Assembly: GCF_024713975.1 (NCBI RefSeq)
Contig: NC_091100.1
Coordinates: forward strand, 19,229,501-19,293,500
Reading direction: 5' to 3'
DNA from: Paralichthys olivaceus
Taxonomy: Eukaryota > Chordata > Actinopteri > Pleuronectiformes > Paralichthyidae
Length of the DNA: 64,000 nt
The first letter of the stretch is position 1; each line of letters opens with the position of its first letter. Below are positions 1,354-63,274 of this stretch, piece by piece. Position numbers and translations under genes: made by a program. The notes below the pieces were generated by a model. That model saw nothing but the letters and a program-made list of their open reading frames with translations, was not told the DNA's origin and ran no database searches.

Positions 1354-11428
<10,075 letters not shown>

Positions 11429-16040: not shown

Positions 16041-16073
<33 letters not shown>

Positions 16074-27259: not shown

Positions 27260-30200
27260 CATGTACCTTGAGCTGGGTGCAGATATTCTCCGACATGAGT
27301 TTGACGGATGTTTTCTTGATGACTTTAAAGTCCCAGGAGCAGAAAACCTTCACAGCCAGGATACTGTGAGATTTGTCAATTCTGAAGCTCTGACCAAACG
27401 ACTTGGACATGCTGTTGGGAAGTTGCACATTAAAAGGATGCAACAGATTTTTGATACCGTATAATATTGATGTAGTTTGTGTTCAAGAGTTTAAGCTTCT
27501 CTTACCTGTACACAAGGATGATACATGTGATGAAGAAGGCCACTACTATTGTGAAGAAGTATGCAAGAGGCATGTTGTAGGACAGATGCTTCACACAGTT
27601 CAGCGAGGTGCCATTGGACACAACAGAGATATTCTGCCCTCCACCATCATCCCTGCAGTGTTCACGCATGGTGTAGTTACAGTAGTACCCATAGTACATC
27701 ACTGTGTCTGAGAAATAGCCCTGAGACAAAATGACATGGACAGAAAATATAATATACATACAATTATCAAATGAATATGATTATTTACCTAAGTGACATT
27801 GTTAGATCCAAAGATCTCCTCCAGACATGTTTTAGGATATATAAAATGCTCTGCTTTGTATAACTAAAAAATGTCATCTTATATATAAAATAATTAAATT
27901 GTTTTCCACCTTCTCCTCCAAGGAATGAAATCTTTTCTTTTTCTTCTTTAATCTTCTTTTCATTTGATGTTGTCATTGTTTCCATTCATATGGTCCTAGT
28001 TCTCTGTGACATCAAGAATGTCTGGGGCTTTGTAGCATGAGAGAGGTTTTGAAACTATATGTCACCACAGCACACTACTTACTGCCCCAGTGAGGAGCTC
28101 CAGTCCAGAGAAGGAGCGACTGACAGACAGTAGCACTGGAGGATGCACTGCCTGAGGCAGCACCATGAACACACCCATCAATAGGAACAGGAAGAGGTTG
28201 AAGAAGAGTAGGGTCTTGAGGAACAGGAAGAATGAGAGAACTCCTGTGCCAAAGCGCCCGCTCACTCTCTTGAGCGCCACATGCCATGGCTGGAGGGAGT
28301 GCAGGAAGGATAGCCAGCTGTACCAGCCCTGTCTCATAGCCTGGGGAGAGACAGAGTGGGAAAACAGTGGAGGAAATGGTATATATATATAGATATATAT
28401 CTATATATATATAGTGTACTTGTATTTGCACAAGAGTACAACAGATTGTATACAGGTGCTATCATAAACAACAGACAATAATTTAAAGAATACAAACGGT
28501 ATTGATTTAGGTATAATAATACTAATTCTAATGACAATAGGAATATATGTATGTGTATATATATATATTTAGTGAAGAAGAAAAAGAAGTGTTTGGTAAA
28601 AAATGCCTCACAAAGTTTAGCAGCAGAATTCCAGTGTACACGTATTTGTTGTAAAGCTTTTGTGAGTCTGAGGTATTTGTGTGGGCAACAAAGAGATTAC
28701 ACTTGCTTGATAACAACACCTACAGGAAATACCCCCCTACACTCATTTACAGCTTTTAGATCTGCCGTCTGTGTTCCTGTGTATCTACCATTTGAGCACA
28801 GTGTAAGTATACATTTCTTCAACAATGTTTTACAATACAGAAACTATTATGATTGTATGTATAGACAATTGACGTGATTATCACATATAACACTGAGAAC
28901 ACATAATGAAATAAGCACAGCGTTCCCTCTGGGAATAAAGAGAAAAGCCCGGTCATCAACCAGCCAACGGTCAGTTAATCTCTACAATCAAATGAAGTGG
29001 GCGGCAGCATGACTCTGGCTACTGGACAGAGGTTTACTGTGAGAGTCACACACCCTATACTACTGTTATGGTATTTTGTTGTTGTTGTTTAGCAATGTTC
29101 TATCATTTCATCTCGCTCCAATGAAACTCATCTGGGCCACAGTTTACACAGAAGAGCTGATTATATGTCCAACATCCTAAATATTTCCTGATTCAGTAAT
29201 GTGAACATTTAAATCATTCCTTGTTTACAGTTAGCTCTATAGCTTTGAGCTAAATCCCATATGATTGAAACATTTTAAGCACACTGTGTTCTTCAAAACA
29301 GCTTATAAATAAAAAACCTTAACAATTTGTCACATTTATTGTTAGTAAGTGATTAGTTTATTTTAAAAAAAGACTGCTGACAGACCAGCGCCACATCCAG
29401 GAAATCAGATTTCAGCTGGGGTCAGTGCCTTTGGCCTCGGCCCTGCATCTGCCCCCGCTTCCCTGAATTAGGGCCAGCTCACACATATGTCTTTGTGAGC
29501 GAGAAGGTAAATAAAACAGAAGTTACATCACAGCCAGGCTTGATGTGGAGTTCCACTTCTTTGAACTTTGACCCTTGATATTCACTTCCGTTTGCATACG
29601 TGTGACCATGTGTTGCCTCACTAACATTAACTAGGTTAATTCAGCCATAAGCCACTGTCTATCATTGATTTCCTGTATTAGATCTTTTTCAGGGACAAAC
29701 AAAAGGAAGAAAAACAGAAGTAGAAGAGGCAGAGGGTGATTTGAATGTGTCAACTGTCACTAAAAGGAACAACTCTTTAGTAAACTTGCTTGATCCAAGA
29801 AGGTGTGGCAAAATAAATACAGGAAGTAGAACACAGACAAACGTTGCTGGTGGTATAACTTACTATTATGATGTAATATTTGAGTCGACTACAACAGGGG
29901 ATTTGACTTTCAGAAAATGTGCGTCTCTCCTTTTGTAATGCTAACCTCCTGTAGACAGAGGTGAGAAAAAGAGGGATTTAGACGGATAGATTAAAAAAAC
30001 AGATTTAATCTAAATATGAATAATGAGAACAAGAAGCCTTTGAACCTGAGTTCACTCTTCTCAGCCACACTGAGCGGCATCGCTCGGAGCATCCGCACTC
30101 TGTCGTTAACTGAAAGGTTCTGCAGGTTGTTCACCAAACGTTCCCTTTTAGTCACTGGAAAACATACAGACATAGAGAGTGTGATAAGTGAAGTGACCCA

Positions 30201-36600: not shown

Positions 36601-37529
36601 GAATCCCAGGGAAATGTTGGTATGGCAGAGAGGGGAGGAAGAGAGATGAAAACCTGGAAGTCAGTACTTTAGTGCAAAGGAAGAAAAAAGCAGGCAGAGA
36701 AAACGGATCAAAATAGAGCACTTCTAACAGGAGGAATGAAACCAAGCAAGAGGAGAGCTGCTTCCAATTGCTGTTTCTATTATGTATACACGTACACAAC
36801 TACAGTGTTACTGAGGGCCATCACACTGCATGCCACTCTGCCTTCATTCAGAAAAACAGCACATAAAATTACAGGTTTGCTGCTGCCAACATCACAGACA
36901 CTGGAATCATGTGTGCTATGACACAGAAACATCTATCTCTCTTTATATCTATGTATTTAGAAAGTTATATAGATAGATGGGCCCAAAATAAACACACATG
37001 TATGTAAGTATGTATTTGTGTGTTTGTACACACACAAATACATACTTACATACATACTCACACACACACATATATATTTATATATAAAACAAACACACAC
37101 ATATATAAACATGTAAACATACATACAAAGAAAAGACATGCACACGCACATACATATACACACATTTATGTATGTGTTTATGTGTGTGCATGTGCATGTC
37201 TTTCTATAGTTATGAGGGTTAATTTTGGTTCAAAACCATCAATGTGAGGACATGAAAGATAGAGAGACAGACAGACAGAGAGACAGACAGATAGAAAGAC
37301 AGACAGACAGAGAGACAGACAGATAGAAAGACAGACAGACAGACAGAGAGACATACAGATAGAAAGACAGACAGACAGACATACAGATAGAAAGACAGAC
37401 AGACATACAGATAGAAAGACAGACAGACAGAAAGACAGACAGACAGAACTTTATCGCTCCCAGGAATGATTGACGTTGTGAGGACATTTGGGCTGGTCTT
37501 CACAGTCTGTACTTATTAAACAAAGCTCG
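33659..37529 (-). other. tmc6 5' untranslated/intronic region
   Basis: No protein-coding exon was recognised. The ATG exon (33603-33658) probably continues into 5' UTR; a plausible acceptor lies near 33731. The rest looks like a long first intron: AT-rich DNA with no convincing ORF, plus (ATAC)/(AC)-rich microsatellite DNA at about 36990-37190 and a tetranucleotide array at 37257-37447. Confidence 0.55.
37257..37447. repeat. (AGAC/AGAT)n tetranucleotide array next to a retroposon 3'-end remnant
   Basis: About 190 bp of agac, agat and agag tetramers end in gacagaactttatcgctccc. Read in reverse, this is gggagcgataaagttctgtc, the signature 3' end of many fish LINEs and SINEs, followed by their tetranucleotide tail. 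The array therefore looks like the expanded tail of an old insertion. Confidence 0.75.
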
Positions 37530-40233: not shown

Positions 40234-43200
40234 ACTAACACAGTCACATCTAAAATTACATGCAAACAATGTGGCATGCTATGTTTTTATTTACTTTGAG
40301 GAGACCAGCTGATGTTTTATATTGCAGGCAGCTTCCACTAAGAAAGGACAAGAGGCACAAATAATGCTGTAAAGCAAGTGCGCTAAATAGCAACAGCCCT
40401 GCTCAGGTCTTATTCATGCAAATAAGGATATTTATATTCTAGTGTTTTAATTGTGCTCAGATGTTTTGGTGACACATCAATCATCAAAAAGAATACACTG
40501 GTCCACAACTTTGTCTACTTTTGTTTTGACGTCCTGCACCCCAGGGTGCCCATGCAACACTTATGTACAAGACACACAATAGATAAAGGGAACATAAAAC
40601 CAAAAAGGAAAGCAAGGCGACATATGGTATGGTATCCACTGGTTGAGTATATTTCAAATTGGTAAATCAAACATGCAGCAACTGAAACATCTATCAATCA
40701 ATTAATCTAGAACTATGGCACTTTGTAGAATGGAAACACATTTAAATTCACTAGATGCAGATTTCTATTTGATCTAATGTGAGGATTTGACAAAACAACA
40801 CATCTTAAACTTTTACTGCCATTTTCCAACATTTCAATAACAAAACAATAAAAACAACTTGTAAAAAAGCTGAGCTCAGTGAAAACACACATGTATGAGT
40901 GTGTCCCAACAGACACTATTTATTTAAGTCAGAAAATCACTTCTGTCCTTCTCACCACAGATGAGAGCACTCACTCAACGCTGTCGCTGGACTCCTGTGA
41001 GTACTACCAGACAGAGATATTTGATCAGCTGCCCAGCATCCAGGCTTGCCGACCTGGGTCGAGCATACAGGATATTTTGGAAGCCTCCGAGGCTCAGGGT
41101 AGCACAGAGCCGGGGGAGAAGCCCAGCAATGGCCCCCCGTCCAAAGGATCCAGAGACAAGGAGTCAATGCACCCGCTTCGGAACCTGCCTATGTGTATTA
41201 AGGCAAAGAGAGGAGCCAGGTAAGAGATCTTATTATGCACTCCTCCCCTCTGCTTCTTCTCAATCTTACTTTGACATTCAAATGGAAATGGTGGTCACAT
41301 TCACTTACTGCATATGCTTTCATTGGGTTAAATGAAACAAGAGTACCTTGTCAATTAATTAATTACAATATTCTGTCATGCTGCATCACTTTGAATAATT
41401 GTTTTCAATCTTTCTGGTCTCTGCATCAATAAAACACTTTTTTGAATTCAATTGAAAGGCTGCATATGTAAGTGAATGGTGGCCAGTTTACTTGAAGCCA
41501 ATTCAGTTATAATTCCCTCTCATATCATTGTATTTAAGTAAATAAAGCCTAAATATAGAAATAGTAGTAGAGCTATTCACATACAAAAGGAAATGTCATA
41601 TCAATTTAGTTCAATTTTATTTTATTTATTTTTCCAAAAGCAGACTCATAAGCACACTCTGTCATCATATTTCTATTGAGGAATTAAAGGGGCATTCCAC
41701 TGACTAATAAGTTAATTTTAATGATTTGGAAAACAGATGAAGATGATCAAAAGGCAAAAATGTGAATGAGGATCTAGCTTAAAAAACACTACAATTCCCA
41801 TAAAGCATATGTGATTACACTGGTGAACACATGTCTTTCACACCTCTACAATGTCCTATATTTTGAGTCAAAAAATTGCAGTAGAAACCCGAATATTTTC
41901 AAACAATGGTTCAAACCCTCTAATCTGATGTTTTGTTTCGATTAGTTAGGTGCTCCATGATGTAGATGTGGGGGAATTCATGGAATATAATGTCTATGCT
42001 GTTGATTAGGGTCAGGAGGAAGATGCAAATCAGCAACATTGGTTTTTGGGAGTCCTGGAGGCGGAGCCAGAGCATCAACAGGAAGAGGGTGTGGGCGCAG
42101 ATGGGAGGAGCTCTGACTGGCCTGTTGCCATGGCAGCAAACTCTTAGCTTCATTGAAGGTGAGGAAGGTCTATGTCTATGGGCTTGTATCACACCTCTCA
42201 GTAGCTTCTGTGTTGTAATTTAATGAATCATCTCACCATGCACTTTAATGTTATTGCATAATTAAATTCCTGAATCTGAGTGTTGATGTGTTCCCAGGCA
42301 GGTTTGGAGTCGGCGTGAAGGCCTACTTTGTTTTCCTCAGATACTTGATTTACTTGAACGTGCTTCATTGTGCTCTTATCTCGGGTTTTATTCTGGGGCC
42401 TTCATCGTTTTATGGCAGGGGCAACAGCAGTGGTGAGTCACATGTAATGTCAGGTCACAGCACATGTAACACAACACGATACAGACTCACAAAAATACAC
42501 TAATGATTGTTTGTGTTTTACAGAACCTTTGAAGTTCGGCGGCAATGATTCCGTTTTAGATTTCTTCCAGGGATCGGTAAGAGCTGTGTGCGTTTGTTCG
42601 TGTGTGTATGTGGCTGTTTTTGGGTGTGTGTTTGTTTGTGAGTGTTTGTGTGCATTTGTGTTTGTGTATAAATAAATATATATTTATATATATGCATACA
42701 GTATATATATAAATGGCTGTGACTTTGTGTGTGTGCCCTATTCATCTTTCTCCTCTCCTCTGTACAGGGCTTTGTGGATCGTTCTCCTGTCTTCTTTGGT
42801 TTTTATACTCGTGGGTCCCTGAATTTCCCTTGCTTGAACACGCCCCTGCTTTACTTTGCTGGGATCCTCACCATCCTCTTTCTCAGTCTCATCATGGTGG
42901 TCCGCAGGTCAGTCATCTGTGATAACACGGCAAAGAAAAACCTCCAGTTGTTATTTTCCTTGCATCCTACAAGCAAGTGTTTGATGTGTTACCCTGCAAA
43001 TCTCTCTAACAGAACAGCAGTTGGCTTCAAGCACAGGTGGATGCTCGGGAGGCGCTACACTATGAATGTGAGCTATAAGGTCTTCTGTGGCTGGGACTTC
43101 ACCATCCTGGACCCTGCTGCAGCGACTCTCAAACACAGCTTCATCAAGAACGATCTCAAGGTGCCGGGACAGACGCGTCTTCTTTTCATATAGTGTGCTA

Positions 43201-46160
43201 ATTCAGCTACTAATCAGATACTATATATATACGTATTTATATCAATCATATCTACCCAGGCCGTAATATATCTGAAACACCGCTCAGTACAAGTCAATAC
43301 TTTTCAACACAAAGTTCAGCCTTCACAATTCACTAAAGCAGTTTCAACAAAATCTGAACTTCATAACATTCATAAAGGGAGGAGTTGTATAAATGAAGGG
43401 CTGCTTTATCCAACAGCTGTGTTGTTTTTAATGAAGGCTATCAAGTAAAATGGCAGTAGAGTCTTAATCTTCATAAATAAAAATCAAATCTGGATAAACA
43501 TACACAACTTAAAATAATGATTCACAATTGTGTAACTAAGATGATTATCACTGACGTCAAATGCAAGTGATTATTATTTCAGATTGGGACTTTTAGTGTG
43601 TCCCCATATGTTTAGTTTAAATTTATGAATAAGTGGCTATAATAATAATAATAATGACTTTATTCATATGGTAAATCCCATAACATAAAAACAGTCATAA
43701 AAAAATAATAATTAAATGATCTAAAGGTAAGGTGTACAGTAAATATGATATTATTCTTCTTTAATGCATTTGTGATGTTTAGTTGTGTCTTGTGCCGCTG
43801 TGTTGAAACAGTCCTTTGGTTTATAAAAGTCTCTGTGACTGTGTGTCCTCAGCTCTTCCTGGAGGAGCAGAGTTTCTCACTGCGAGAGGCTCAGAGGACT
43901 TTTAGTCAAAGGATACGTCTCTACCTGCTCAGGTTCTTCTTGAACATGGTCATTCTGTCTCTGCTGGGTGGAGCCTTCTACCTCATCTTCTTTGCTACAG
44001 AGATGTCACTGAAAGATGTAAGACCTTAACACTCAATACGTCTGGTTCTGTCGCTGCATGTCCTGGATTGTCTGATTCGTGTGTGTTTCTCAGAGTGGGT
44101 ACCACTGGTTGGTCAGTCTGTTCCTCCAGTATCTTCCTCCCATCACCATCACCTTTGTCAACCTGCTGCTTCCCATCTTCTTCCATAAGATCTCCCCTTT
44201 TGAAGATTACTCTATCACCACACAGGTGAACACCACGCTTGTGAGGTATGCGCTGAGATACAAACACATGAAAATCTGTTGTATACACAGACACACGCTC
44301 CTGCATAGATTCACACTGTCTTCTCTGCAGGAGCATCTTCTTGAGGCTGGCCTCACTGGGGATCTACTTATTTTTCCTCTTCAACCCTGCAAAAGGGCCT
44401 AAACAAGTAAGCTGAGAGATTTTCGAAGTCCTCCTGACGGACCCGTAATGAGGAATTATTAAAGTAATGCTATCTACATGATTGTGTGTGTTTTACTTAG
44501 TGTTTCATTTGTGTGTTTCTTTGCAGCCACCGTGCTGGGAGAACCACTTTGGCAGAGAGATGTACAAGCTGTCTATTTTCAATTTCCTCGCCACCTTCTG
44601 CAACACCTTCCTGTTTGACTACCCCAGGAAGTGGGTTTGCTCATCAGTCTCTGTTTCTCTCTGACTGTCAGAGATTGTTCATATCAGGCCTGGGATGATT
44701 ATCCACCCTCCGGGCTAAGAAAGCTTGTATCTTTCCTCTGTTTGACAGGCTGGTGCAGGAGAAGTACCCCACATCCTTGCTGGCCCGGTTGTCGGATAAA
44801 CAACTATTCTTGATCCCTGTCAATGTGCTGGATCTGGTGTACAGTCAGACTGTGTCCTGGGTGGGCATCTACTACTGCCCTCTGCTGCCTCTGATAGGAA
44901 CTGTCACACTGGTGGCCATGTTCTACATCAAAAAGGTCTGGAACAGAACAGTTACTCTACACATGAGCTGTTCAGTTACAATACATATTAGAAATATAAT
45001 ATATATACAGTGTGATATATATATATATATTATATGTTATATGTATATATATATACAGTATATATCTCACACTGTGTCCATATCTCTATTTGTCCTAATG
45101 TAAGGTCTGTTGCTCTGCTGTGACCATCAGTTGTATTTGTCCAGTAATGTCCACGTGTCTCTCTTTCCAACTCTGTTTTCAGTTCACACTGTTGCGATGC
45201 TGTGTTGCAGAGGACCGCATGTTTCGAGCCGCCACGTCCTCAGTTTTATTCCACTTCATGTTGCTGCTCGGTCTCATCATGGCTGTATTCACACTGGGCT
45301 TCAACCTCTACCAACAAGTCACACTGGACAATGGGTACTCTTCCTATTGCAACTCTGATATCTTTTTATCATTTTACAGTTATTGTTACAGAGAACAGAA
45401 GATTTATTTCTGTTTGTCTGTTTCATATTACTGTTTCCTCTCCAGGTCCTCCTGTGGTCCACTTGGAAATAGAGAAACAGTGTTTAATGTGACAGGGGTT
45501 TGTGTGAATAGTCTGCCCAACCTGGCACAGAGCACTCTCCACTACCTGACCTCCATGGCCTTCGCCCTGCCACTCATACTTGCTGAAATGTAAGCGTGGT
45601 AGCTAAACTCCAGCTCTGTATTTGCAGTTTGCTTTAATTTTCCCAGGTAAAACAAATTTAAATAGTACATTTTACTATGAAGCTGTTTCAACCTTAGGGT
45701 GAAGGAACAACAGTAGAAGCTATGTGTGTTCAGCTACATACATGTGGTGATCATCAATGAATAGAAGCAGTGATGAAAGTAGACGTGCCGTTCTCTGCTT
45801 TTTGAATTTAACATGAAACACATTGTGTTCCCTCAGTATAATCTTAACATCCTATGTGTCACGGGGTCGAGCCAATCAGAAGGCCATTGAGAGACTGAAA
45901 GACATGCTGGTTATGGTAAGACACACATCACCAAACAACTTACATATCTTGAAATTAGCCGCAGAATGAAAATAGGACATATTCGCGTTACACAGCATAA
46001 TTAATATGGAGTCCATATGTATGTTGAGCTTTTCCACTGTGAGTGTGTAAATGTGTATGTGTCTCCCTCGCAGAGTAGCTCAGATAAGCGTTTCCTGGTG
46101 AAACAGCACACCACAGTGCTCAGACGTCAGAGGGATACCCACAGACTCCGCACAAAGTAG
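39980..46160 (+). CDS. tmc8: Transmembrane channel-like 8 (EVER2), 16 exons
   Basis: TMC8 is the partner of TMC6 in the ER-membrane EVER complex, expressed mainly in lymphocytes in mammals and linked to zinc balance and skin virus control. Exons: 39980-40022, 40961-41219, 42010-42158, 42298-42432, 42524-42576, 42768-42907, 43013-43160, 43853-44017, 44094-44245, 44331-44406, 44527-44630, 44749-44935, 45183-45334, 45446-45589, 45837-45915, 46074-46160. All phases close to 690 residues (human 726). Landmarks: a long hydrophilic N-terminus, RFGVGVKAYFVFLRYLIYLN, VFCGWDFTILDPAAATLKH, LFLQYLPPITITFVNLLLP, the signature CWENHFGREMYKLSIFNF (residue 443 on), NVLDLVYSQTVSWVGIYYCP and a basic tail ending DTHRLRTK. 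Position head-to-head with tmc6 and before syngr2 supports TMC8 over TMC7. Poly(A) candidates lie at 46251-46256 and 46528-46533. Confidence 0.93.
40189..40229. repeat. (AT)n microsatellite in tmc8 intron 1
   Basis: About 20 AT units. Confidence 0.95.
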
Positions 46161-46932: not shown

Positions 46933-49900
46933 ATGAAGAATCTACAGACTCTTTTTTTGTTGCCTCTTTTGGGTGAGTTTTATTCAAAATGACAACAGAA
47001 ATAAATGATTTAATATTAATACTATAATATTCTTACTGCAACATGTTGTTGATTTTGTTTTCAGCTCTGGCAAGTTTGTTCATCAAGATAAGTAAGTGCT
47101 TGAGATATTGAGCTCAGTTTTCTGAAATTTTTTGTTTGTCTTTATGTACAATAATCATGATTGTTGTATGAGTTGCTTCAATGTGAATGAATGAAGTCAG
47201 TGACTTTACTGTCATTTCTTTTATTAAAATGTATTACAGGTATGCCAGGGGTCTATAGCCAAACTATTTCCACTACTTCATATCTTTCTTTCGGTGGATC
47301 AATGAATCCTCACCCAGTCCTGACTGGCCCTCACATGGCCTACCTCGGCTCGAGGGTAGCTTTCTGGTGTATTGCACACAACTCCTCTCCACCAGTCACC
47401 TATCAGCTGATAAGAAACAGTAGTATCCCAATCGCCACAGGCACGGATCTCCAAGGTGACCAACCTGCATCATTCTTCCTGAAGGTCACTGCAACATCAG
47501 AGGGGTTGTACCATTGCAATGCAACAGCTGAAGGAAGCACAGGAGTCAGCAACATCCTCACGCTGAGTGTTGTCAGTAAGTACCACACATCGGTTGTTAG
47601 AAAGAAGAAATATTCCCAGATGTAACCTCTTCCTTTCCTCCCTAACCATCTGCCATTGCCTCTCATCTATAGTTCCAGCATCAAATACCAGAGTGACCTC
47701 TGAACCTTCCCCCCCAGTCGCATACGAGGGATCACGCATCGTCCTGAAATGCACCGTCACAAGAGGCTCCCACCTGTCCTACACCTGGTTTTTCAACAGG
47801 AAGGAGATAACATCTTTAACCTCTCCTCTTTTCCACCTCACTGGTAACGAGCTGGTGATGGAGCAGGCGACTCCAGAGCATGCTGGGCACTACTCCTGCG
47901 TGGCCTCATCCATGGTTCAGGACATCAGGAGGTTTTCCAGCAGCACTGAGGTCAAGGTGACAGTCAAAGGTACATATCTACAGAAATATTAACAGAGGAT
48001 ATAGACGACTTGGTGGAAGGATGGGCTCTGGGCTTGGGAAGAGTCTGGATTTTTAATTTTCTTATTATATGCAATGCTCCGATCTCAATTTTGCTGTTTT
48101 GTGACCAAAAAAAAAAAAAAATAATAATTATGATTTTCATTTTATTTTTCCACCATAACGATGTGTAGCATTGTTCAGCCTTGGTTGAGGTTTGCGCTCT
48201 TCTGAGCTTCTTCTAGTTCATGGTATTTCTTAACATTTTTTAACCATGCTGGTTGTTGGTCATTCCAAATCTTAATTTGGACTTAATTTTAATTTGCTTT
48301 ATGACCAAATAGCTGCAAACTATCAACATTCTCATTAGCCTCGATTGTGCTATGTGTTAAGCACTGATAGCAAATGTAAGCATACTAAAGTTTAAACTGT
48401 ATTAGCATGTTAGCAATGTCACTGTAGTGTAAATGAAATGGATTTATTACCACATGGAGCCTTTAGACCAAAGTTATTGCACAACTTCTTTTTGAAAATA
48501 AACTGTGGCCATAACTACGTGGACAATTGAGAATCGTCTTTTTTCCCAAATCATGGTTATTCAAAATGCTGCCAAAACATGGCCCACTGTTCAAGGGAGG
48601 ACTTGTAAAAAGGTGTGGAACATGGCTGCAGGAATTTGTTTCCCATTCAGGACTGACGGTGGGATTTGTGAATATGGGCTATACAAATAAAATGTGATTG
48701 TTTGATTGATTGATTGATCCAAGGGCCTTATAAATGATTATTATTGTTGATGCAGGTTCAGTATTATTACTGTCTTCTCCCGTCGTTTTGCCTCCACCAG
48801 CTTATGTATCAAAGCCAAAGATCTCCTTCTCCATCATCAGCAAGGGAGACGGTTACCAAGGCAACATCACCTGCTGGTCAACCAGAGGGAGCCATCCGGT
48901 CAACTTCTCTGTCTCAGTAAATGACGAAGAGGTGAGATCCCTCACAGTAAACGAATCCCTCACTGTCTGGTTCCTGGTCCACGTGGTACTAGGGCAGGAC
49001 ATGGGCGTGGCGCGATGCTGGGTGAAAACGGAGGCGCAGGAGCTGATGAGTGAACCTGTGACTCTGGAAGTGGGTATGAGCTACACAAACATGTGAAGGA
49101 GATGTGTGATGTTTCTGTGATTCCCTTACTCTAATTTCCCTCCTCTTCACGGATGTTCCTCTCTCCTCCACGTTTGTTCAGTCCCAGTTGGAGGTGAGGT
49201 GAAAGCAGAGGTGGAATATCTCTACAGAGCCGACTCCAAGCGTGCCGCCGCCGCCAAGCTGAGGTGCATGTTCAGCAGAGGAACCTTCCCTCACATCTCC
49301 TGGCTCTTGAACGACTCAGTCCTTCCCTCCGAAACACATGAGGACCTCCAGTCTCGGGCTAACCTGCCTCATGTTGCCCTCGCCAATCGCAGTCAGACAC
49401 TTGTCCTCACTAAGCTCGCCTCAGAGGAGTCTGGGAATTACCGCTGCAGGGTCAGGGACAGCTTTAATGACTCAGGGCCCTGGGTGGAGAGTGGAGATGT
49501 GCTGGTCCAAGTCACAGGTAAAAAGATCAAAACTCAAATGAAAGTAATCCCAGTGGAATAATGAATATTCCATATATACGTGTAATATACCACACACATG
49601 AGGGAAGCATCATTTTTCTCATCTTGCTCTTGACAAGAAGACAAAATAGGATATTACCCCAAATGTCAAACTATTCCTTTAATGTGTGCCTTTTAATAAA
49701 TGCCTTCTGTGTATGTGGGGCCTCTGCACTCTATATCTTTTTTACTTTCAATCAGACAGGATCCTGAACTCCATGCCTCGAGCAACATCTTCCACTGAAA
49801 CACCACCAAGTAAGCAGCACATGTTGGTTATTCAAATGACTCACAAGCTGACACTACAGTACGTCATGGCTCACTGTTCATGTCTCTTCTCCTTCACAGA

Positions 49901-50843
49901 GGTTTTCATGACCACTACAGAGAACATCGCCATAGCCTTCTGCTGCTTCCTTTTTCTCATGTTGACAGCTGGCGTGGCCTGTGTTTACAGGATGTTTGAC
50001 CACAACCAAGGTGTGTGTGTGTATGTGTGAAGGAAACATTCACTGTACACAATTTTCACTTTATAATTCATTATTTAAAATATCCCTATATCTCCACCTC
50101 TTACTTCTTTTTCAGCTCAAGCCCACATTGCTGTGACAAAGTAAGCTTTTCCCTAATGGAACTTAGAAGGTTTATCGTTTCTGTGATTAAATCCAACCAC
50201 ATCAACCACGTTTGTACCTTTTCCTGTCAGTTCTGATGCACTTCCTCTGTCTGTGCCCTCGTCCCAGTCCTGTGCAAACTGTGATGTCCTGAGTCAGGTA
50301 TACAGGCCGTCATAACAGCACATAAACACAAAGAGTTTAAATCAGGGAACTGCCTCTTCTCAACAGGTTTGTAAATTCATATTAAAGTGAGATTTTAAAG
50401 TTATTTTATGGGTGTGGTTTTCATATAAGCCATAACATAAAAATTGTATTCCATTGGGAGAACTAAACAAAGGTATATATTAATCATTTCCTTCTTGATA
50501 TTGTAAACTAAAATGTTTCAACTCACTTGTATGCTTGCCTGTAAACATATTTCACATTTTCATCATTTAAACACAAAAATGTCTCACTATTAATCCCAAC
50601 CTACTATTCTCCTTAGTTTTTATATATGGACACATGAAATAAAGCATTATTCAATTAAGAAGTTTTAAGAGCACCACAATTTTTTTGTTGTTGTTTTTTT
50701 TAGCTTTTAATGGAGCAACTCTTTCAATAATCTCCTTCAGGAGCTTTAAGATAAAAACATCTTGTTTTGACAAACAGACTAGGTGCTAATATAATGACAT
50801 CTTTTCTGTCTGTCTGTTCCAGACCATAGAGATCACAGTATGA
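46933..50843 (+). CDS. Four-Ig-domain type I membrane protein at the IL-40 (C17ORF99) position, gene A
   Basis: Exons: 46933-46972, 47065-47091, 47240-47575, 47673-47969, 48801-49073, 49182-49517, 49756-49809, 49900-50010, 50116-50140, 50231-50297, 50823-50843; phases close to 528 residues. A split signal peptide (MKNLQTLFLLPLLALASLF) uses a 27-nt second exon. Each Ig domain is one phase-1 exon with its cysteine pair: FWC/LYHC, LKC/HYSC, ITC/VARC, LRC/NYRC. A Ser/Thr stalk, a TM segment (IAIAFCCFLFLMLTAGVACVY) and a 44-residue tail without tyrosine follow, ending TIEITV. The architecture is FCRL/PECAM1-like. The position between tmc8 and syngr2, same strand, is that of human IL-40, and D1 shares motifs with it (PPVTYQL versus PPITYSL; QPASFFLKVT versus EPASFNLNVT, recalled). 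The function is unknown; a leukocyte surface receptor is inferred. A poly(A) signal lies at 51094-51099. Confidence 0.85.
48640..48721 (+). repeat. Retroposon 3' tail with (TTGA)n in gene A intron 4
   Basis: The string gggctatacaaataaaatgtgatt, followed by a short ttgattgattgattga run, is the typical 3' end of fish LINE/SINE elements. The body upstream is not recognisable. Confidence 0.55.
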
Positions 50844-51688
50844 CACAGCATGAAGTTCCTGCTCCTCTCAACTCATCACATTCATCACTTTGTCCAAATA
50901 TTTCATTTTGATATTGTAGCTTTTTTGTTCTCTACTGCATTTGATACTTTTCCTGACCTGTAAAGTTACATAGTTACTTAAGAGTTTAAACACAGAGAGA
51001 TGGGATGTTTTTCAGCATAACCACTGAATACTGTCAAGTTTTTTTTTTGTCAATTAAAATTTTTACCACTTAATGTTTTTATGAAACCAGTGAAATAAAA
51101 TGAATGCTTGACTACATCACTTCATCATGTGTCAGACATACCATTCACATTTGTATGCATCTGCACCGGCGACAGCCAGTAGCAGAGGCATTATGCTTTT
51201 GGGTTGTCTCTCTCATTCTTGTGAACATGGTATCTCAAGTACACCTTGAGGGACAATTTTTCAAATTTATTACAAATGCAAATTTGGAACAGATTAGATT
51301 TTGTTGATCAGAGGTCCGAGGTCACAGTAACATTATGTTCTTGTGAATGTGATGTACAGATTCACCCATAGTGAATTTCATTACATCTGACCCTAACTCA
51401 AGGATGACCTACCATTAAAGGTCAAAGGTCACGGTGGCCTCATATGAGTCTGGAAAAGAGTGCATGTAGACTGTACCTGCATTGGTTGGTGGATGCATGC
51501 AATCGCAATGCAGTGTAAAATGTAACAGTTTAACAGTTAAGACATGAAAGGAGGGAGGGGTAGTGTATTGCTATCAGTTATTTGCACGTTTCTAAGTGTG
51601 TGTGTGTGTGTGTGTGAGTGTGTTTATCTACTGTGTGTCATCCCTCCATTCGAAACTGGTCAAACCTGATGCATTACAGTGTAGCAAG
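50844..51688. other. Spacer between the two Ig genes
   Basis: It holds the gene A 3' UTR (AATAAA at 51094-51099). About 51225-51450 resembles a dispersed fish repeat with taaaggtcaaaggtcacggtggcct. A GT run lies at 51596-51616, 70 bp before the gene B start. No exon was seen. Confidence 0.55.
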
Positions 51689-54600
51689 ATGGAGGTTAGC
51701 AGTTGTATGAAAGTCAGTCATTTTTCTTTGAGAATGTTTGCCTTCCTCCTCGTGGTCACGCTGGGTGAGCAAATCAACACAAACCACACAACAGTTCACA
51801 ATACAGTATCTCGCAGTTTGAGACTTTTGAATTTTTTTATTTCTTCTTGCTCTCTGTAGGGTCATGCTACTGCAGAACGAACAGCAGTAAGTTAGTTGTA
51901 TGGATTTTATGTGTGCAGTCAATAGAAAATATGAGTTAAGAACATTATAGAGCATTTGACTGTCCGTGCACTTTTTATTTGTCTATTTTTTTATAGGTCA
52001 GACAATTCTGGGGATTCCAGAGCTGCTTGGCCCTTCAGAGGCTTTGCCGGGACACATTGTTATATTCAAATGTGTAGTATCAAACAACACAAAGAATGAA
52101 ACTCTCCTAATGCAGTTATACAAGTGAGTAATAATACTGTATTCCAAAATGAACCACTGTGTTAAAATGTATGAAAACCCCTCTATCTATCAACCTTTTT
52201 TAGGAAGGATAACAATACCAAGCTGTTGGGTGAGTCTACTGCTCTGTCTGGGGAAACTGGGGTCTTCAACCTGGTCACCAAACTGTCCCATGAGGGCAAC
52301 CTCGAGTGTGTGGCCAGAGCACAGAACAACTCTCACGTCGAGCCCACTGTCAGCAGAACACACTACCTGAGGGTGGTCGGTGAGTCTCTTGATACCTGAG
52401 ATCACTGTGCACATTATGTGTAAACACTCAACACCGTGAGAAACACATTTCTCAACAGAGTAGTGGGATGTAACAAGTTACTGTACTTCAGTGCATTTTC
52501 CATGTATCTGTAGTTTACTGAAGTAGATTTATTTTTGGTTACAGTTCACTTTTACTCCACTACATATATCAGCAAATATCTGAAGAAAATTTGACATTAA
52601 TATGATTTAACATAACATTAACATAAATAACATACAGAGAAAATAATAATTTGACTAAAGTAAAATGTTTGACTACCTCCTCCAGCACTGTTTAAAAGGC
52701 ATGTTGATTCAAGGTGAATACTATTAGTTTTTTCTATTAGTCTTAAAAACTAAGTACAGCCGAGGCACGTTAATAGTATTATTTGGTTACGAATAATACG
52801 CGAGTTGAAATTTCGACCCAATAATAGCAGCAGATGACAGCCAAAGTTACATTTAAACGTATTGTGTGTGGGACCTTGAACTCTGGTTTCAAATTTCACC
52901 ACTATCTTGAGGCGATTTGTTGATTTTTTTATCAGAGGGGATGATTAACACAGTTTTTACAATAACTGTAAGAGTTGATTTGAAATAAGAGTGTGATCTC
53001 AGTGCAGTGTGCTGCTGTGCTTGTCCTGCAGAGGGAGTGGAGGATGCACAGATTTTTCTTCATCCAGATCCAGAGGAGTTCTTCAACGGCCAGAATGTGA
53101 AGCTGGTCTGTGAAATTGCTGCTGGAAACCACGTGTCCTATAAATGGCTGCTGAATGGTCAGCTCATCTCTCCGTCTTCAGGTCTCTCAGATAACTTTCT
53201 CCATATCTTCAGGTCAGTGGAAAACCATTTGGACACTCAATGGATGGGTGCTGTTGTTTCATCAGGTGGTTGCTATGACACTGTCCATGAGTCAGGAAAA
53301 TGGATTTGATTATTTGATCACTCTTCTAAACTGTGTTTGGTAGTTACCAGGCTGTTGGTGGGATGTTGCTCGGTGGTTGCTATGGTTATTCTGTCTTCAT
53401 CCATCTTTAATATAAGTCTCAGGGATGGATGGGGCTTTCTTTGCAGGATAAATAACTTAAGGATGGTAACAATTATAATCTCTCTCAACAAATATCTAAC
53501 ACTGTCTGATAAGATCCTCTTCATCCAAACAAGCAATCACAATGTTACTAAAATAATAATCGGTGCCACCCTCAGAATCACTTCCAGAGACAGCGGCTCC
53601 TACTCATGCGTGGCTACCAACTACTACAACCAAACAGTCTTTTCAACCTCCAGAAGTCCTGGAATTGAAATAACAGTCAAAGGTGAACCATTTTGACTAA
53701 TGAATAAGCTCTATGGACTCTCTGGACAATAATAACATCCTCACGTCCTGCTCCCTCAGATGTGGTGTCAGACCCTGATATCTCCTTCACTGTGCTGAAG
53801 GAGGATTCCCACAACTATTCTGCTGTGGTTACATGTGAGTCGGCGGTAGGGACCCCACCTGTGATCTTTTCACTCTACGACAGGACACGGCTGGTTGCCA
53901 GTATGATGAGTGAAAACAGGAGCGGCATGTTTAAGTTACCACTGGTCTTGGATCAGTACTTGGGAGAGCTCCAGTGCGAAGCAGACAACAGAGCCCAGGT
54001 TGCTCACAGTCAGTGGCTGCCCTTGGAAGTTGGTATGATGGCGTTGTATGCAATCGTTGACATGACTCTATGATACAGATGACTTTTTATTAATCGTCAA
54101 ATCTATGATGTGTCCTTCAGTCTCAGTTGGTGGGCCTGTGACCATGCGGTACGACCGCGACATCGGAGAAAACTTTGCTGTGGTCGGCCTGAGATTGTAT
54201 TGCAAGGTGGCAAAGGGATCTCATCCACGGTACCAGTGGTTCCTCAACAAAACCCTTCTCCGTGACAGAGGAAGTTTCTACTATGTGGTCGACCAGCCGC
54301 CAGAACTGTCAATACTCCTGCTGTCAGTGGGGAGGAGCAGCGCTGGGACGTACCACTGTCAAGTGTCTGACAGCTTTGACAACGCCACTGCAATAAGCAG
54401 CAGGAAGCTATATTTGGATAAACAAGGTACAGTTGATTCATTAATGTAATACATCTTTGTAACCAGTGAACACTGTTAATTCATCTTCTTCCTGCACCTC
54501 CAGTGCTGAACCGTCTCCCTGTCTGGGTAGTGGCGGTTGTCTTTGGATGTTTCACAGCCTTGATTCTCCTGGTGTCCATCTGTTGTGGGATTGGAGTGGT

Positions 54601-55528
54601 GTACAGTAAGATCACAGATTTCTCCAACATTTTAGGGTCTATTTTTTTCAGGAGGTGATCCTCCTCATTTGTTTCTGATAGTTAATGCTGTTTACTCCTC
54701 TTTTCAGGGCGAAAGGTTTTTGAAGAGAAATCTCTGTGAGTTACTTCTGTTAAGTTCTAATACCTTAACATTTTATATTACCACATTTCTGGCTGTGAGT
54801 TTATGCAAAATATTCCATTAAAATGAATAATGGCAGATGATGGATTAAGTGAAAATACAATGACCCTCTTCCTGGTTTCCTTCTTTGTGCCATAAAACCA
54901 GTGCATGCAGCTTTATGGTCCTAATTGGTATAGCTCACGATTGGCCAACTTTTTTATCAATTAAGATTTAAGATAAGGCTTGAAAGAAAATAGGGATATT
55001 TTTGGATACAGTAAAGAAAATATGAGGTTGCATCTTTCTCAAATGTTTGCTGGGCGTGTGTAGACAGCTGTATATGTGACATCTGGCTGTTTCCTCCTCT
55101 CAGGTTGGGTCTGGAGATGGAGCGAAAGGTGGTTGTGGACGAAAGCGAGCTGGTTCGTCACTATTTCTGTATCTGCATCATTCAAAGCTTCAACCACTCA
55201 TTTACTCTCAAAAGAGAAACTTTCACAGCACATTGCTCTATTTCTGTTGTGTTTGATGTTTTAAACCATGACAGTGCTCTCTTCTTGTAGGATCTGTGTG
55301 AGTACAACGAGGATGTGGATGTGGTGAGAGCAGCCAGAGGTGATGAACTTGATCAGGTGAGACTAGATTAACCAATGAAATCCATCAGCCAGTCAAGTCA
55401 GTTACATAAACAAGTCAAAGTCTCATGTCTCTTGCACTCCTCAGACATCTGAAGCCTCTGTAGACGAATGGCCCCAAATTGCAGCGCAGAGGAAGACGTT
55501 GGAGGATGAAGCGTTTGAGGAACCCTGA
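51689..55528 (+). CDS. Four-Ig-domain type I membrane protein, tandem paralogue, gene B
   Basis: Exons: 51689-51764, 51860-51886, 51997-52123, 52204-52379, 53032-53212, 53534-53682, 53760-54032, 54121-54426, 54504-54605, 54708-54735, 55104 to about 55128 or 55152 (donor uncertain), 55291-55356, 55445-55528; about 539-547 residues. The signal peptide is split by a 27-nt exon as in gene A. Four Ig domains have cysteine pairs FKC/LEC, LVC/YSC, VTC/LQC and LYC/YHC; D1 and D2 are each cut by an internal intron, which gene A lacks. The TM is VWVVAVVFGCFTALILLVSI. The tail is acidic (EYNEDVDVV; DEAFEEP end) without a canonical ITIM or ITAM. D3 (273 nt, as in gene A) resembles IL-40 D2: VGTPPVIFSL versus SGSPPITNSL, and CEADNRAQVAHS versus CQAANNANVQHS (IL-40 recalled). 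Ligand and function are unknown. A poly(A) signal lies at 55836-55841. Confidence 0.85.
52480..52640. repeat. Fragment of a common fish dispersed repeat (tacttttactccactaca type)
   Basis: The string cacttttactccactacata, with gttactgtacttcagtgc upstream, matches the terminal part of a repeat widespread in teleosts. The opposite end of the same kind of element appears near 38911-39050. It lies in gene B intron 4. Confidence 0.5.
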
Positions 55529-58083: not shown

Positions 58084-61000
58084 CCATACTTTGCAGCTGT
58101 GTCTAACCCATCAAGTATTCACCTGGGTTCGACTACCATCAATCTCTGGTGCTTTTATTCGTGCTTCATTGATCAAGCACCTGCAGTAAGAGAACAACGT
58201 TGTTTGCTCTGTAACCCCGCCCACATGTCCCACAATGCAATACACCTGTTCCCAGAACAAGGAAAAGTCTTGTTCTAGGAATAGCCATCTCATATTCTTC
58301 ACCGTCTTGGTGGTTTTAGTTTATGGGTAAATACAAGACGTCATTGTTTAAGGCAGAGCTTCGTCACATCCACCTAAACAATATTCCTTTTGTTCACATG
58401 GAACATGTTGTCGTTTATTTAACATTTGTCACTCAACGCTTTCAATCTGTGTATTTATGTAAAGCGACATCCATCTGTTTCTCTAACAGTCCCCACTTTT
58501 GTCTCATTTTTTGGAAGTCCCTGCGTTCACAACCCTCAACGTCTCTGCCTCCTGCTCAGTCACTTTACCTTTTGTCTGGCCGGGTTACGGCCTCTCCTCC
58601 TTCCCACGTGTTAAACAGTCCCTCTCTATCCTCCTCCCAGATCTCATTATGAGTGTTGTTAGGGAACTGGTGGCATCTCCAGAGTCACATGGCAGGCAGC
58701 TGCACTCTGAAGTAGGTCACATGGTTAGGTGGGTAACCAGAGCAGACAGTAACAGACCACGGGACGGTCAGAGGGACCTGGCAGCAGTTAATGCTCTTCG
58801 ATTTCTGAGCAAAAGAACTTGAGGGTGTTGCAAGAGTCAGCAATAAGACAAGACTGTGGGCGACGATGCCTAATATTCCATTTTGGCTTGAAAGTAGAAA
58901 TGGATACAGGTTTTTGTGAAATTGTTGAAACTGGTGCCGTTCCCGTTCTAAACTTGCCTGTTTATTACTTTAGAATCATTGCCCGTCATTAGTGAGTCCT
59001 ACTTAATGTTTGTGTGCTGCATGTTGTTTGCAGAGCTTTTGATAAACAGTCTATGGTGCAGAGTGAAGTTTCATAACTTTCATAATAGAAAACAAGCTGA
59101 ATTCACACATTGTCATCGCAGCCACAATGGTTTATTTTCCACTGGGGCTGCTGTTGTCTTCATTGAGATGTCTTTTGGAAGCAGTCTCAAATTCCAAATG
59201 TCAAGGTGTCTGTTGAATGCACCACCAAGGAAGAGTTTTCCAAATCATTCCTTGAAATGAACTGAAGACAGTGATGTGAGCTTGACACAAAATATTGTGC
59301 ATTACCTGTTTTTGATTAAGTCATATTGTAGATTTTAATTTCGTTAATGAAATGAGACCTATTGTTTCAACATTTGGTCAGGAGTCATGTACGGTATGCA
59401 GTGTGAAGTTAATGGGTAAACTTGAAGTAAACTGCCAAATGCTCCTTTAACTGAGATAGTTAAGTGTTTGCAAATCATTGATTGTTTAAAAAATGTAAAT
59501 AAATCTTGTATTCCTTCACTTTACACTATTTGCAACCTTCCTGCTCTCTTTGTTTGGATGTAGATATTTGCCATGGTGGTGTTTGCCTGCATCACAACAG
59601 AGGGATACATCAACAGTCCCCAAAGTGCACAGGCAAAGTGCTTCTTCAACCAGAATGACTCAGCGTGTCAGTATGCTGTGGCCATTGGGGTGATTGCCTT
59701 CCTGGCCTGCGTGGCCTTCCTGCTGTTAGATGTTTACTTACCTTTCATGAGCAATGCACAGGAGAGGAAGTACGTTGTCATGGCCGACCTGGGATTCTCA
59801 GGTGAGCAAAAGCTTTATTGTTTAAAACTGGCATTAAAACTGCACTTATCAGTCTTTTTATAATAGCAATGGATCAAATTGCCATGTGTTGTCTGAAAGG
59901 TGCCACTCACTCAGTGACAAGCCTTCATGAAATCATTACCAATTCTGCAGTAACTTGAATTTATACCTCATGTCCTGTCTTCTGCATGCACTACTCTGGT
60001 GCCACACCTCACCTAAATGTTCCAGACATTTTCCTGTTGTTGTGAATGCATCTCCTGCTGCGATCATTATATGTGAAAGGCAAACATTGTTCATGTCTGA
60101 ATACGACTCTAAGGTTAACAATCAACTAGAAAGTCTTGTAAAATGACTCACTTTGATACTTTAATCTTGCACCACCAGAAGAGACATCTCAGAGAGAGAT
60201 CCCAAATCCTCCTGTACTGTCTTTATCTGCTGCCCACAGATTTGTCCAAGATTTTCATTTGATGTGTTGCAGATAGTTAATAGTTCCCTTCTATCCAGAG
60301 GTTTGGCCAAAGCCATGAAAAGCCTCATGGCCTTAAAAACAATTTGGATCTGTCCGTTCTGAATAATAATTGGCCCACACTAAACCTGTCACCTATCAGT
60401 AAAATCACTGAGAAAGCTGTTTTAAGTCAATTCAACATCTTTTTGTCAAGAAATAATTATTTTCGACTTTTGCCACTTTGGATTTAGACCCCACCACAGT
60501 ACCGAGACTGCTCTAATCAAGGTTTTGAATGACTTTGGTCTCTGTCCTCGAGCTACTAAAGCTCCTTGCTGCTTTTGATACAGTTGATCACAGTATATTA
60601 AAAAACAGACTGGAGCACTGTGTGGGTCTCTCTGAATGTGCCCTGAACTGGTTCAAGTCCTGCATCCATGACAGAGACTACTTTGTACTATGTGGTAGAT
60701 GCGCATCAGAGCGTCTCCCAATAACGTGTGGAGTGCCGCAAGGGTTGATTCTTAGAACTAGAAAGATATTCAATCTTAATACGCCTCAATTATGCCAATG
60801 TCATTAAAGATGGTATGATTTCTGATCACATGTATGCAGATGACACTCTGTGCCACCAAGCAACTATAGCTCATTAGATTCCTATTAAAGTGCATGAAAC
60901 ACATTAATAGGTGATGCTTCAAAATTTACTTCAGTTAAATGAGGACAAATTTATTCTCTTTGTTGCTGAGGAATAAAGCCTCAGATTCTCTGCTGACTTC

Positions 61001-63274
61001 TTTGAAAAATCAAATATCAAACTAGAAACCGTGTTGTTATCCTCAATTCCAACCTTAATTCCAGTGATCACAAAATCAGCCATCTACTATCTCAAAATTA
61101 TGGCAGGGATCTCAATCTGGATAACTTGTACTTTCATTTATCTCCAGCAGGCTGGATTGCAACAATGGTTTACAGGCCGCACAGTTTAGTTTCACATGTA
61201 AATTCCATTTTAAAACTAAAATACAATGTTAGTCTATGTCTGCATAATGCGTATTGTTAAATGTTTGATAATGTGTTAACCACATTTAAGGTTTCTGCTT
61301 AAAAAAGCTTCTTAGTGCAGAAATAATACAATTAAGGTGATAGTAGTAAAAAGGGCTTGCAGACAAAGTAGTAAAAGGTTCCCAGGACACTCAGTTTTTA
61401 TTTGTGTGAGAGCTGCAAACGTATATATTACACCAGAGAAGCTTTTAAAGGATGAAAGTCACGAGAGGGCAGTATCTTCTAATCCCATTTTTTCCACAGC
61501 ATTATTAACTGTTTTTAAGCTCTGAGTGGTTGTTTCTCCTCATAGGTTCCCCATCTGAGTTTTATTTTGCTCATTTACTATAAATGTGAACCTCTTAGTA
61601 CAGAAAGCCTCTGATTGTTGGTGTAATGTGGGACAGACCGCCTGCCTGTGTTCCTGACATAACACAACATGTAGGCCCTATTATTCCTTGTAGTGTACAG
61701 TCGAGGAGCGAGCAGCCGGGTGGGGGGGTAGAACAACCTCACAGATTCTTCTAAATTAAACATTCATTAGCTACAAACAGCACAGATCACAGTCAGCCAT
61801 TCATCAAGGGAAACAAAGAAGTGGTAGTTTGTGAAACAGCTTGTGATCATTTGAGCAGATTACGACAGGAGCGACCTTTTTGTTCTGTTGACATTTTTCT
61901 TCCTTTGTCTAGTGGAATTCATTTTCATATCATTTTCAACTGAGTGCTTGTGATGTTGTTTCACACAGTGTGGAAAAATGATCATTCACATCCACGTCTG
62001 CACATCTGTGTGTTTTCTAGGGGTGTGGGCCTTCCTGTGGTTTGTGTGTTTCTGCCTGTTGGCCAATCAGTGGGGTCGCACTTATGATGTCAGAGGTATC
62101 CCCCAGGACGCTGCACGCGCCGCCATTGCCTTCTCGTTCTTCTCCATCGCCACCTGGGTGAGCAGGACGCTGTCTGTGTTTTTATTAAAACAGCTCAAAT
62201 GTTACCATGTCACTTCAACACTGAGCTGCAGCTGGAGAAAGAAGTTTAATAATATGATTGTTGCCCAGACTAAGATCTGACACAGATTACTAATGGTGCT
62301 TTTTACTAATAAAGTTTATAAATTAGCTTCAGCTTTCATTTTCCAATAAGATTCATTTTGAAAAGAGAGAAACCATAAATCGTCTGGGTAATCTCGCCTC
62401 ACAAGTATATCCAGCAGTGAAAGGTCTCTGAGTTACTCTTTAGACTTTAACATCAAAAACCACGTTGATAATACTACAAAGCTGCCAATTTCCATCTTAG
62501 TGTTTACTGTCAAACCTTTGCCTGGTAACACAGCGGAAGTCATTTGACTCTATTGTGTCAGCAGCTAAACCAACGTTTTATTGCAAGAGACTCTTATTAA
62601 AGGTACAGTGTGTAGAATTTAGAGATATCTGGTGTTGAAATTGCCTGTTGCAGCTGAACACCCCTCACCTCACCCTCTCCTTCCAAACATGAAAAAGAAC
62701 CTGTGGTAGCTTTGCTTGTCATAAAAACTCAAAAGGTGTTTAGTTTGTTCAGTCTGGACTAATGTAAAAAATATGAGGATTATTCTGCCAATAGTTCCCT
62801 TTCACCTAAATCTTACACACTGGACCTTTAACTTGACCTATAGACTTCCATGCTGTGTAGCTTTTGCACTTTTGCACAGAAAAATATTACCTTATTGTCC
62901 AAATTTTAAAAACATCCTCAGCATTAGTGTGAAGTCAAAGTGATTTATTAAAATGATGCATAATCTTTCAATGTACCTGGACTGACCTTTACATTTCTCA
63001 CCTCATCGTGCAGGGAATCCTAGCCTACTACGGGCTGGTTCGTTTCCGCCGTGGTACCACTGAAGTCACGCTCCCGACCTACACAGAGCCGCCATCGGAT
63101 CACCACGCCACTTACCCTCCGACCTACCCCCCCAGCACCTACAACCCCACCACCTACACCCCTACCAGTTACGCAGCCTATCCCAGCAGCGTGCCCGACA
63201 TGCACCAGCAGCCTCCCTTTGCCTCGAACCTTCAGCCGCAAGGAGACGTCGGCTACCAGCCGCCCACCTACTGA
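56600..63274 (+). CDS. syngr2: Synaptogyrin-2, four-TM MARVEL-domain vesicle protein, 4 exons
   Basis: Synaptogyrins are tetraspanning proteins of synaptic and synaptic-like vesicles; synaptogyrin-2 is the widely expressed form. Exons: 56600-56710, 59564-59801, 62021-62157, 63014-63274; phases close to 248 residues (human about 224). Landmarks: GGGFDLNKFVRQPQTIVRLL, TM1 (MVVFACITTEGYINS), CFFNQNDSACQYAVAIGVIA into TM2, DVYLPFMSN, WAFLWFVCFCLLANQW (TM3), DAARAAIAFSFFSIATW (TM4), then a cytosolic Tyr/Pro-rich tail ending GYQPPTY. Sequence alone does not cleanly separate synaptogyrins 1, 2 and 3; adjacency to tmc6-tmc8 supports synaptogyrin-2. Intron 1 (2.85 kb) and intron 2 (2.2 kb) carry repeat debris. 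The 3' UTR occupies 63275 onward and probably leaves the window. Confidence 0.92.
56789..56832. repeat. Perfect inverted repeat (20-bp arms) at the start of syngr2 intron 1
   Basis: The left arm agcggataaatcatatatat pairs exactly with the right arm atatatatgatttatccgct across a four-base AT loop. It lies about 80 bp after exon 1. In RNA it would make a strong hairpin, in DNA a cruciform. Confidence 0.9.
58014..58083. repeat. Opposed (GT)n and (AC)n runs in syngr2 intron 1
   Basis: A GT run (58014-58030) and an AC run (58056-58083) are separated by about 25 bp of pyrimidine-rich DNA. The two runs are complementary and can fold on each other. Confidence 0.9.
59950..60112 (+). repeat. Dispersed repeat family R2, copy 4
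   Basis: It carries tatacctcatgtcctgtctt, gacattttcctgttgttgtg, catctcctgctgc, atgtgaaaggcaaac and gttcatgtctgaa, in the same order as the other R2 copies. It lies in syngr2 intron 2. Confidence 0.65.
60340..61010 (+). mobile_element. Broken reverse-transcriptase segment of a non-LTR retrotransposon
   Basis: Plus-strand translation in shifting frames gives LSPISKITEKAVLSQFN, then AAFDTVDHSILKNRLEHCVG, ALNWFKSCIHDRDYFVLCG, ITCGVPQGLIL and MYADDTLC. These are the finger and palm blocks of a LINE reverse transcriptase, including the catalytic YADD. Frameshifts and stops make it dead. It resembles the L2/CR1/Rex type and may be the same family as 21890-22317. Confidence 0.8.
62597..62831. mobile_element. 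TTAA miniature element, copy 3 (reverse orientation, internal deletion)
   Basis: It begins ttaaaggtacagtgtgtaga and ends cttacacactggacctttaa. Internal blocks (cctcaccctctccttccaaa, aaactcaaaaggtgtttagt) are the complement of copy 1. At 235 bp versus 359, it has lost the middle. It lies in syngr2 intron 3. Confidence 0.8.

Follow-up and report, generated by a model that had tools for sequence, protein, structure and literature searches.

The interval between tmc8 and syngr2 in Paralichthys olivaceus, both of which lie on the + strand, holds two complete gene models in tandem on the same strand, named here A and B. They were found in the window, i.e., the whole stretch of 64,000 nucleotides of contig NC_091100.1 that was analyzed, and they are predicted to encode type I membrane glycoproteins of the immunoglobulin (Ig) group that contains FCRL, PECAM1, MILR1, and IL-40. 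Both genes most likely correspond, by position, to IL-40, the product of C17orf99, and we assign to this reading a probability of about 0.57. IL-40 has been called exclusively mammalian, without high homology to other proteins and with no known receptor (PMC12967690), and it is also called mammal-only in the excerpted texts of PMC10923619 and PMC8566875. Among the matches listed from the open-licence literature, no paper tied IL-40 to fish genes or described an Ig gene between tmc8 and syngr2.

The tmc8-syngr2 interval and its two receptor genes

The limits of the interval were set by the domains encoded at either side of the gene pair. Upstream, TMC domains were detected in an exon at 44699-45100 on the + strand (PF07810, 71.7 bits) and in another at 24297-24485 on the - strand (Pfam, 31.9 bits), which we take to be parts of tmc8 and tmc6, respectively. 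Downstream, + strand exons at 59564-59860 and 61954-62277 encode MARVEL domains (PF01284, 34.7 and 33.5 bits), presumably of syngr2. The first-pass annotation had proposed the order tmc6(-) tmc8(+) A(+) B(+) syngr2(+), and the TMC and MARVEL domains indeed lie at the matching places and strands, the paralogue names being our assumption. It had also equated this order with the human one, where the exact order and strands of TMC6 and TMC8 are general background, and the adjacency of C17orf99 and SYNGR2, as well as the inclusion of TMC8 in a shared duplication, are backed by published data. Human C17orf99-SYNGR2 read-through transcripts indicate that both genes are neighbors on the same strand (PMC7544212, as excerpted), and one 151-kb duplication at 17q25.3 covers TMC8, C17orf99, and SYNGR2 (PMC7801512, as excerpted). 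From these human data and the flanking TMC and MARVEL domains, it follows that A and B sit in the IL-40 interval, between TMC8 and SYNGR2 and on the SYNGR2 strand, in a human order that is partly general background.

The 528 amino acids of the gene A protein are encoded by 11 coding exons between 46933 and a TGA stop at 50843, and the 533 of the gene B protein by 13 coding exons between 51689 and a TGA stop at 55528. All the introns have GT-AG borders (10 of 10 in A and 12 of 12 in B). Each protein has a signal peptide encoded by two exons, four Ig domains (D1 to D4), an uncharged transmembrane segment of 21 residues, and a short predicted tail devoid of the immunoreceptor tyrosine-based inhibitory motif (ITIM); the tails and the small second signal exons were predicted from splice signals and phase alone. 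The two membrane Ig receptors with four Ig domains, a transmembrane segment, and a tail that had been annotated at this place were thus recovered as complete models. There are nine N-glycosylation sequons in A and ten in B. Domain by domain, both proteins are only 28-34% identical, suggesting that the duplication that separated them is probably old. When a hidden Markov model of 25 Ig domains was run against the six-frame open reading frames (ORFs; stop to stop, at least 25 amino acids), each of the 10 ORFs found with E < 0.01 was an exon of one of the two genes, and the next ORF had an E value of 0.11.

These architectures differ from that of IL-40, which is a secreted protein of 27 kDa with two Ig domains only and no transmembrane segment, whereas the A and B models are membrane-bound, contain four Ig domains, and form a tandem pair. 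The likeness to IL-40 lies in the shared interval and in D1 and D3, as described below.

Ig types and kinship of the domains

Two Ig types alternate along A and B, and they are told apart by the tryptophan of the C strand. In an alignment of the 25 Ig domains, this residue was present in the four D2 and D4 domains of A and B, as it was in the three outside controls. Its column was without Trp in the four D1 and D3 domains and in the 14 domains from IL-40, MILR1, PECAM1, and FCRL5, where Leu, Val, Ile, Phe, or Glu took its place; in FCRL5, a Trp precedes this column by one residue in two of the four domains. The motif [EDQ]PAxF was found in six of the 25 domains, namely A_D1, both IL-40 domains, both MILR1 domains, and PECAM1 D5, and in none of the four from FCRL5.

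The same division was observed with PF17736, the Pfam model Ig_C17orf99, whose cut-off is 26 bits. The whole gene A protein scored 47.1 bits, and that of gene B scored 26.1, just at the cut-off. Of the eight domains scanned alone, two gave a match, A_D1 (41.5 bits) and B_D3 (23.5 bits); none of the four D2 and D4 domains was matched at E values up to 10 with the HMMER filters on, nor were any of three control Ig pieces, from DCC, contactin-2, and CEACAM1, at E values up to 1. The IL-40 sequence used, a provisional one, gave 239.7 bits. The model was nonetheless discarded as an IL-40-specific test, as PECAM1, MILR1, and FCRL5 pass it too, and therefore it marks a group and not IL-40 in particular. 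These results support, at the level of sequence, the assignment of D1 and D3 to the FCRL/PECAM1/MILR1/IL-40 Ig group. Of the kinship with IL-40 claimed earlier, membership of the group, as judged by PF17736 and by the lack of the C-strand Trp in all four D1 and D3 domains, was upheld, and a resemblance specific to IL-40 was not. In the profile check suggested with that claim, gene A passed and gene B reached the cut-off, but PECAM1 and MILR1 outscored A, FCRL5 was similar to it, and all three were far above B.

Next to the locus, two points support IL-40 within this group, the similarity of D1 to D1 and the mapping of D1 and D3, in order, onto D1 and D2 of IL-40. The short fish sequence blocks that had been quoted as IL-40-like are present in the window. 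Over the whole domain, A_D1 and the provisional IL40_D1 share 26 of 88 residues, and among the 24 other domains A_D1 was the best partner of IL40_D1, with a z value over shuffles of 10.7 in one run and 11.3 in a second. B_D3 shares 23 of 88 residues with the provisional IL40_D2 (z 7.4), and identity between corresponding domain pairs of A or B and IL-40 is 26-30%. In eight of eight comparisons with IL-40 and MILR1, the D1 domains favored domain 1 and the D3 domains favored domain 2 of the partner; these comparisons are not independent of each other and include two for B_D1 that rest on low scores.

Other results weigh against a particular tie to IL-40. The best partner of A_D1 was MILR1_D1, with a z value of 12.7 that is above the 11.3 for IL-40, and B_D3 gave higher values with FCRL5 (13.3) and PECAM1 D5 (10.5; 28 of 88 residues identical) than with IL40_D2. 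When the entire A and B proteins were compared by phmmer with the joined Ig domains of each candidate, the order for gene A was FCRL5 (85.4 bits), PECAM1 (54.8), MILR1 (28.1), and IL-40 (21.9), and that for gene B was FCRL5 (64.8), PECAM1 (36.0), MILR1 (16.9), and IL-40 (7.6). The score of gene A with IL-40 was under that with the unrelated DCC (27.7), and for gene B, each of the three unrelated controls (16.2-19.8) outscored IL-40, and two of these also outscored MILR1. In the PDB, too, A, B, and IL-40 all had FCRL5 as their top match. Moreover, PF17736 was passed by PECAM1 (72.1 bits), MILR1 (61.3), and FCRL5 pieces (43.6 and 45.8), and it did not match A_D3 or B_D1. The IL-40, MILR1, and PECAM1 sequences used were provisional ones, of which only PECAM1 D1-D2 was matched to a record. 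The tree of the domains had an unsupported backbone, and 10 of 11 constraints stayed in the set accepted by the approximately unbiased (AU) test, including those with FCRL5. IL-40 appears to be fast-evolving, which would lower its scores.

As for the remaining tree results, A_D3 and B_D3 formed a pair (SH-like approximate likelihood ratio test 97.7, ultrafast bootstrap 98), and the four FCRL5 domains formed a clade of their own (ultrafast bootstrap 98) that included no domain of A or B; this weighs little, since the four are repeats of one protein. The only constraint rejected by the AU test was the monophyly of all A and B domains (p 0.006). The likeliest of the 12 trees compared joined A_D3 and B_D3 to IL40_D2; this constrained tree beat the one found first, indicating that the initial search was not exhaustive. 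Placements with IL-40 to the exclusion of FCRL, PECAM1, and MILR1, and their rivals, were all within the AU set. Clustering of A and B domains with FCRL, represented by four domains of one protein, was absent from the maximum likelihood tree and unrejected by the AU test. A and B were thus not placed firmly within FCRL or PECAM1 to the exclusion of IL-40, as trees of that kind and those with IL-40 alike stayed in the AU set. Since the candidate placements were not separated on this unsupported backbone, the trees were set aside as arbiter.

The prominence of FCRL5 in these comparisons would be expected if A and B were ordinary teleost receptors of FCRL or PECAM1 type that arose or landed here independently, sharing the interval with IL-40 by coincidence. 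FCRL5 resembles A and B in being a membrane Ig receptor, in having pieces that pass PF17736, and in being their best PDB and whole-protein match, and the trees that join D1 or D3 to FCRL5 were unrejected. Fish FcRL5-like genes are known as well, with four in zebrafish, two each on chromosomes 3 and 7, according to the excerpted text of PMC4016189, and those on chromosome 3 may be A and B under another name. In the mammalian FCRL1-6 genes, the signal exons measure 30 and 21 nt, a rule that holds for just a fraction of frog genes (PMC2413239). The coding parts of these exons measure 40 and 27 nt in A and 76 and 27 nt in B and do not follow it, a difference that counts against an FCRL origin, though with less weight in view of the frog genes. 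The FCRL5 domains have Phe and no PAxF, whereas A_D1 and the D1 domains of IL-40 and MILR1 have Leu and PAxF. A tail with an ITIM or a motif like the activating one (ITAM), or a charged transmembrane segment, as in FCRL, was not seen in the predicted A and B proteins, where the ITIM pattern was searched and at most two Tyr are present; the FCRL5 domains also stand apart in the weakly informative tree. This explanation further demands an arrival in the exact interval that, in mammals, holds a member of the same group. We regard it as unlikely.

The high values with MILR1_D1 and PECAM1 D5 raise another explanation, in which A and B represent MILR1 or PECAM1 in fish, and IL-40 is a cousin from one ancestral 17q cluster and not their orthologue. 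MILR1 and PECAM1 lie elsewhere on human 17q. The MILR1 domains showed the same D1/D3 preference as those of IL-40, MILR1 (Allergin-1) has the PAxF motif, PECAM1 passes PF17736, and PECAM1 may also have a second signal exon of 27 nt, a value for which we found no paper. A link between FCRL and PECAM-1 is not new, as the title of a paper from 2002 (Guselnikov) shows. The neighbors of A and B are, however, those of IL-40 and not those of MILR1 and PECAM1, whose place is general background, and IL40_D1 is nearer to A_D1 than to MILR1_D1 (z 11.3 against 7.0). PECAM1, with six Ig domains, has no Trp in the C-strand column of any of them, whereas D2 and D4 of A and B carry it; MILR1 has two Ig domains, and both proteins have ITIM-bearing tails, a feature absent from the predicted tails of A and B. 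This explanation seems to us distinctly improbable. PECAM1 has earlier been derived from FCRL5 (PMC7916592, as excerpted).

As counterparts of IL-40, A and B share with it both the interval and membership of a small Ig group, and common descent at the locus is the best explanation of this double agreement. It seems unlikely that genes from such a small group would have come separately to this interval in this orientation, and positional orthology with IL-40 is likely.

Exon structure and other features of the window

In gene A, the signal peptide starts in exon 1 (46933-46972; ATG, GT donor, phase 1) and continues in the 27-nt exon 2 (47065-47091; AG/GT, phase 1-1), presumably included. The four Ig exons, all of phase 1-1, encode D1 (47240-47575; no C-strand Trp, QPASF motif), D2 of the Trp type (47673-47969; Ig_3, 51.2 bits), D3 without C-strand Trp (48801-49073; Ig_2, 13.0 bits against a cut-off of 27, paired with B_D3 in the tree), and D4 of the Trp type (49182-49517; Ig_3, 31.8 bits, cut-off 30). 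The predicted structure of A_D1 had 8 strands, a mean pLDDT (predicted local distance difference test) of 65.6, and a pTM (predicted template modeling score) of 0.61; this was too weak and was not used further. A stalk exon follows at 49756-49809, set by splice sites and phase, and then the transmembrane exon at 49900-50010, where the hydropathy maximum over 21 residues is 2.45 at position 464, with residues 464-484 uncharged. The tail exons are at 50116-50140, 50231-50297, and 50823-50843, the last with the stop. From the start of the transmembrane segment onward, there is one Tyr, at 484, and none after it, and the pattern search found no ITIM in the predicted tail. The tail exon at 50231-50297 encodes ANCDVLSQ, which recalls a tyrosine motif with Cys in the place of Tyr.

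In gene B, the signal peptide is encoded by exon 1 (51689-51764, from the splice-site model) and the 27-nt exon 2 (51860-51886; AG/GT, phase 1-1), which is probably included. D1 and D2 are each split by an intron, D1 in exons 51997-52123 and 52204-52379 (Ig_2, 18.1 bits alone, below the cut-off of 27) and D2, of the Trp type, in exons 53032-53212 and 53576-53682 (Ig_3, 53.1 bits). These intra-domain introns sit at different places in the two domains, and gene A has neither. For the second half of D2, an exon at 53447-53682 was dropped, as the acceptor at 53576 yields a continuous Ig domain. D3 (53760-54032; IL-40/PECAM1/FCRL type) and D4 (54121-54426; Trp type; Ig_3, 28.5 bits with cut-off 30, and I-set, 24.6 bits with cut-off 23.7) have one exon each, of phase 1-1. 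A_D3 and B_D1, each alone below the Pfam cut-offs, were called Ig domains because of their paired Cys, exon phase, and paralogue. The transmembrane exon is at 54504-54605, with a 21-residue hydropathy maximum of 2.71 at position 431 and residues 431-451 uncharged, and the tail exons, set like those of A, are at 54708-54735, 55104-55152, 55291-55356, and 55445-55528, the last with the stop. Two Tyr, at 458 and 489, are found from the start of the transmembrane segment onward, and the pattern search of the predicted tail gave no ITIM. A hidden ITIM exon was considered and rejected, as the pattern was matched in raw frames and not in the predicted tails; one such match is the gene B transmembrane exon read on into its intron.

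For the exons at 27505-27780(-), 26756-27022(-), 25627-26010(-), 42723-43190(+), 43712-44026(+), and 19808-20179(+), Pfam gave no useful match, and NCBIfam gave nothing useful. Searches for relatives elsewhere, in viral contigs for gene B and genome contigs for gene A, confirmed none, as expected for fish DNA.

In other parts of the window, a stretch of ~450 nt, from 9435 to about 9885, has a near-identical copy 2177 bases further on (98% over a 300-nt core), which is either a recent duplication or an assembly error. Minus-strand ORFs at 9696-9890 and 11873-12082 have their last 62 residues in common and presumably represent an aspscr1 exon. A pectinacetylesterase-family domain was found at 18389-18778 (PF03283, 40.5 bits), and + strand exons in 14319-20179 look like notum, which we take them to be. 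NOTUM lies, as IL-40 does, on human 17q25.3, which indicates that the fish gene order is rearranged. A long low-complexity tract spans 37181-37512, with repeated CLSV on one strand.

A possible origin of IL-40

By the time of the bony-vertebrate ancestor, a gene of this group would already have occupied the place between TMC8 and SYNGR2. In the mammalian line, the transmembrane segment, the tail, and the ordinary domains D2 and D4 would have been lost, so that D1 and D3 remained and were secreted, and in the fish line, the gene would have stayed a receptor and then duplicated. That IL-40 is such a two-domain remnant of a four-domain receptor, with A and B as its fish orthologues, we propose tentatively, at slightly less than an even chance. 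The first-pass annotation had raised this idea, or that of unrecognized fish relatives; locus, group membership, the pairing of IL40_D1 with A_D1, and the D1/D3 order speak for it, and the whole-protein order of FCRL5, PECAM1, MILR1, and IL-40 speaks against it. The ectodomains of A and B may serve leucocytes or endothelium in surface recognition or adhesion, and signaling would go via a partner, because the transmembrane segments are predicted to be uncharged and the tails to lack an ITIM. If the proposal is true, a membrane relative at the locus would give IL-40 an origin and a place in the PECAM1/MILR1/FCRL group, and IL-40 might bind the partner of such receptors or act as a soluble decoy.

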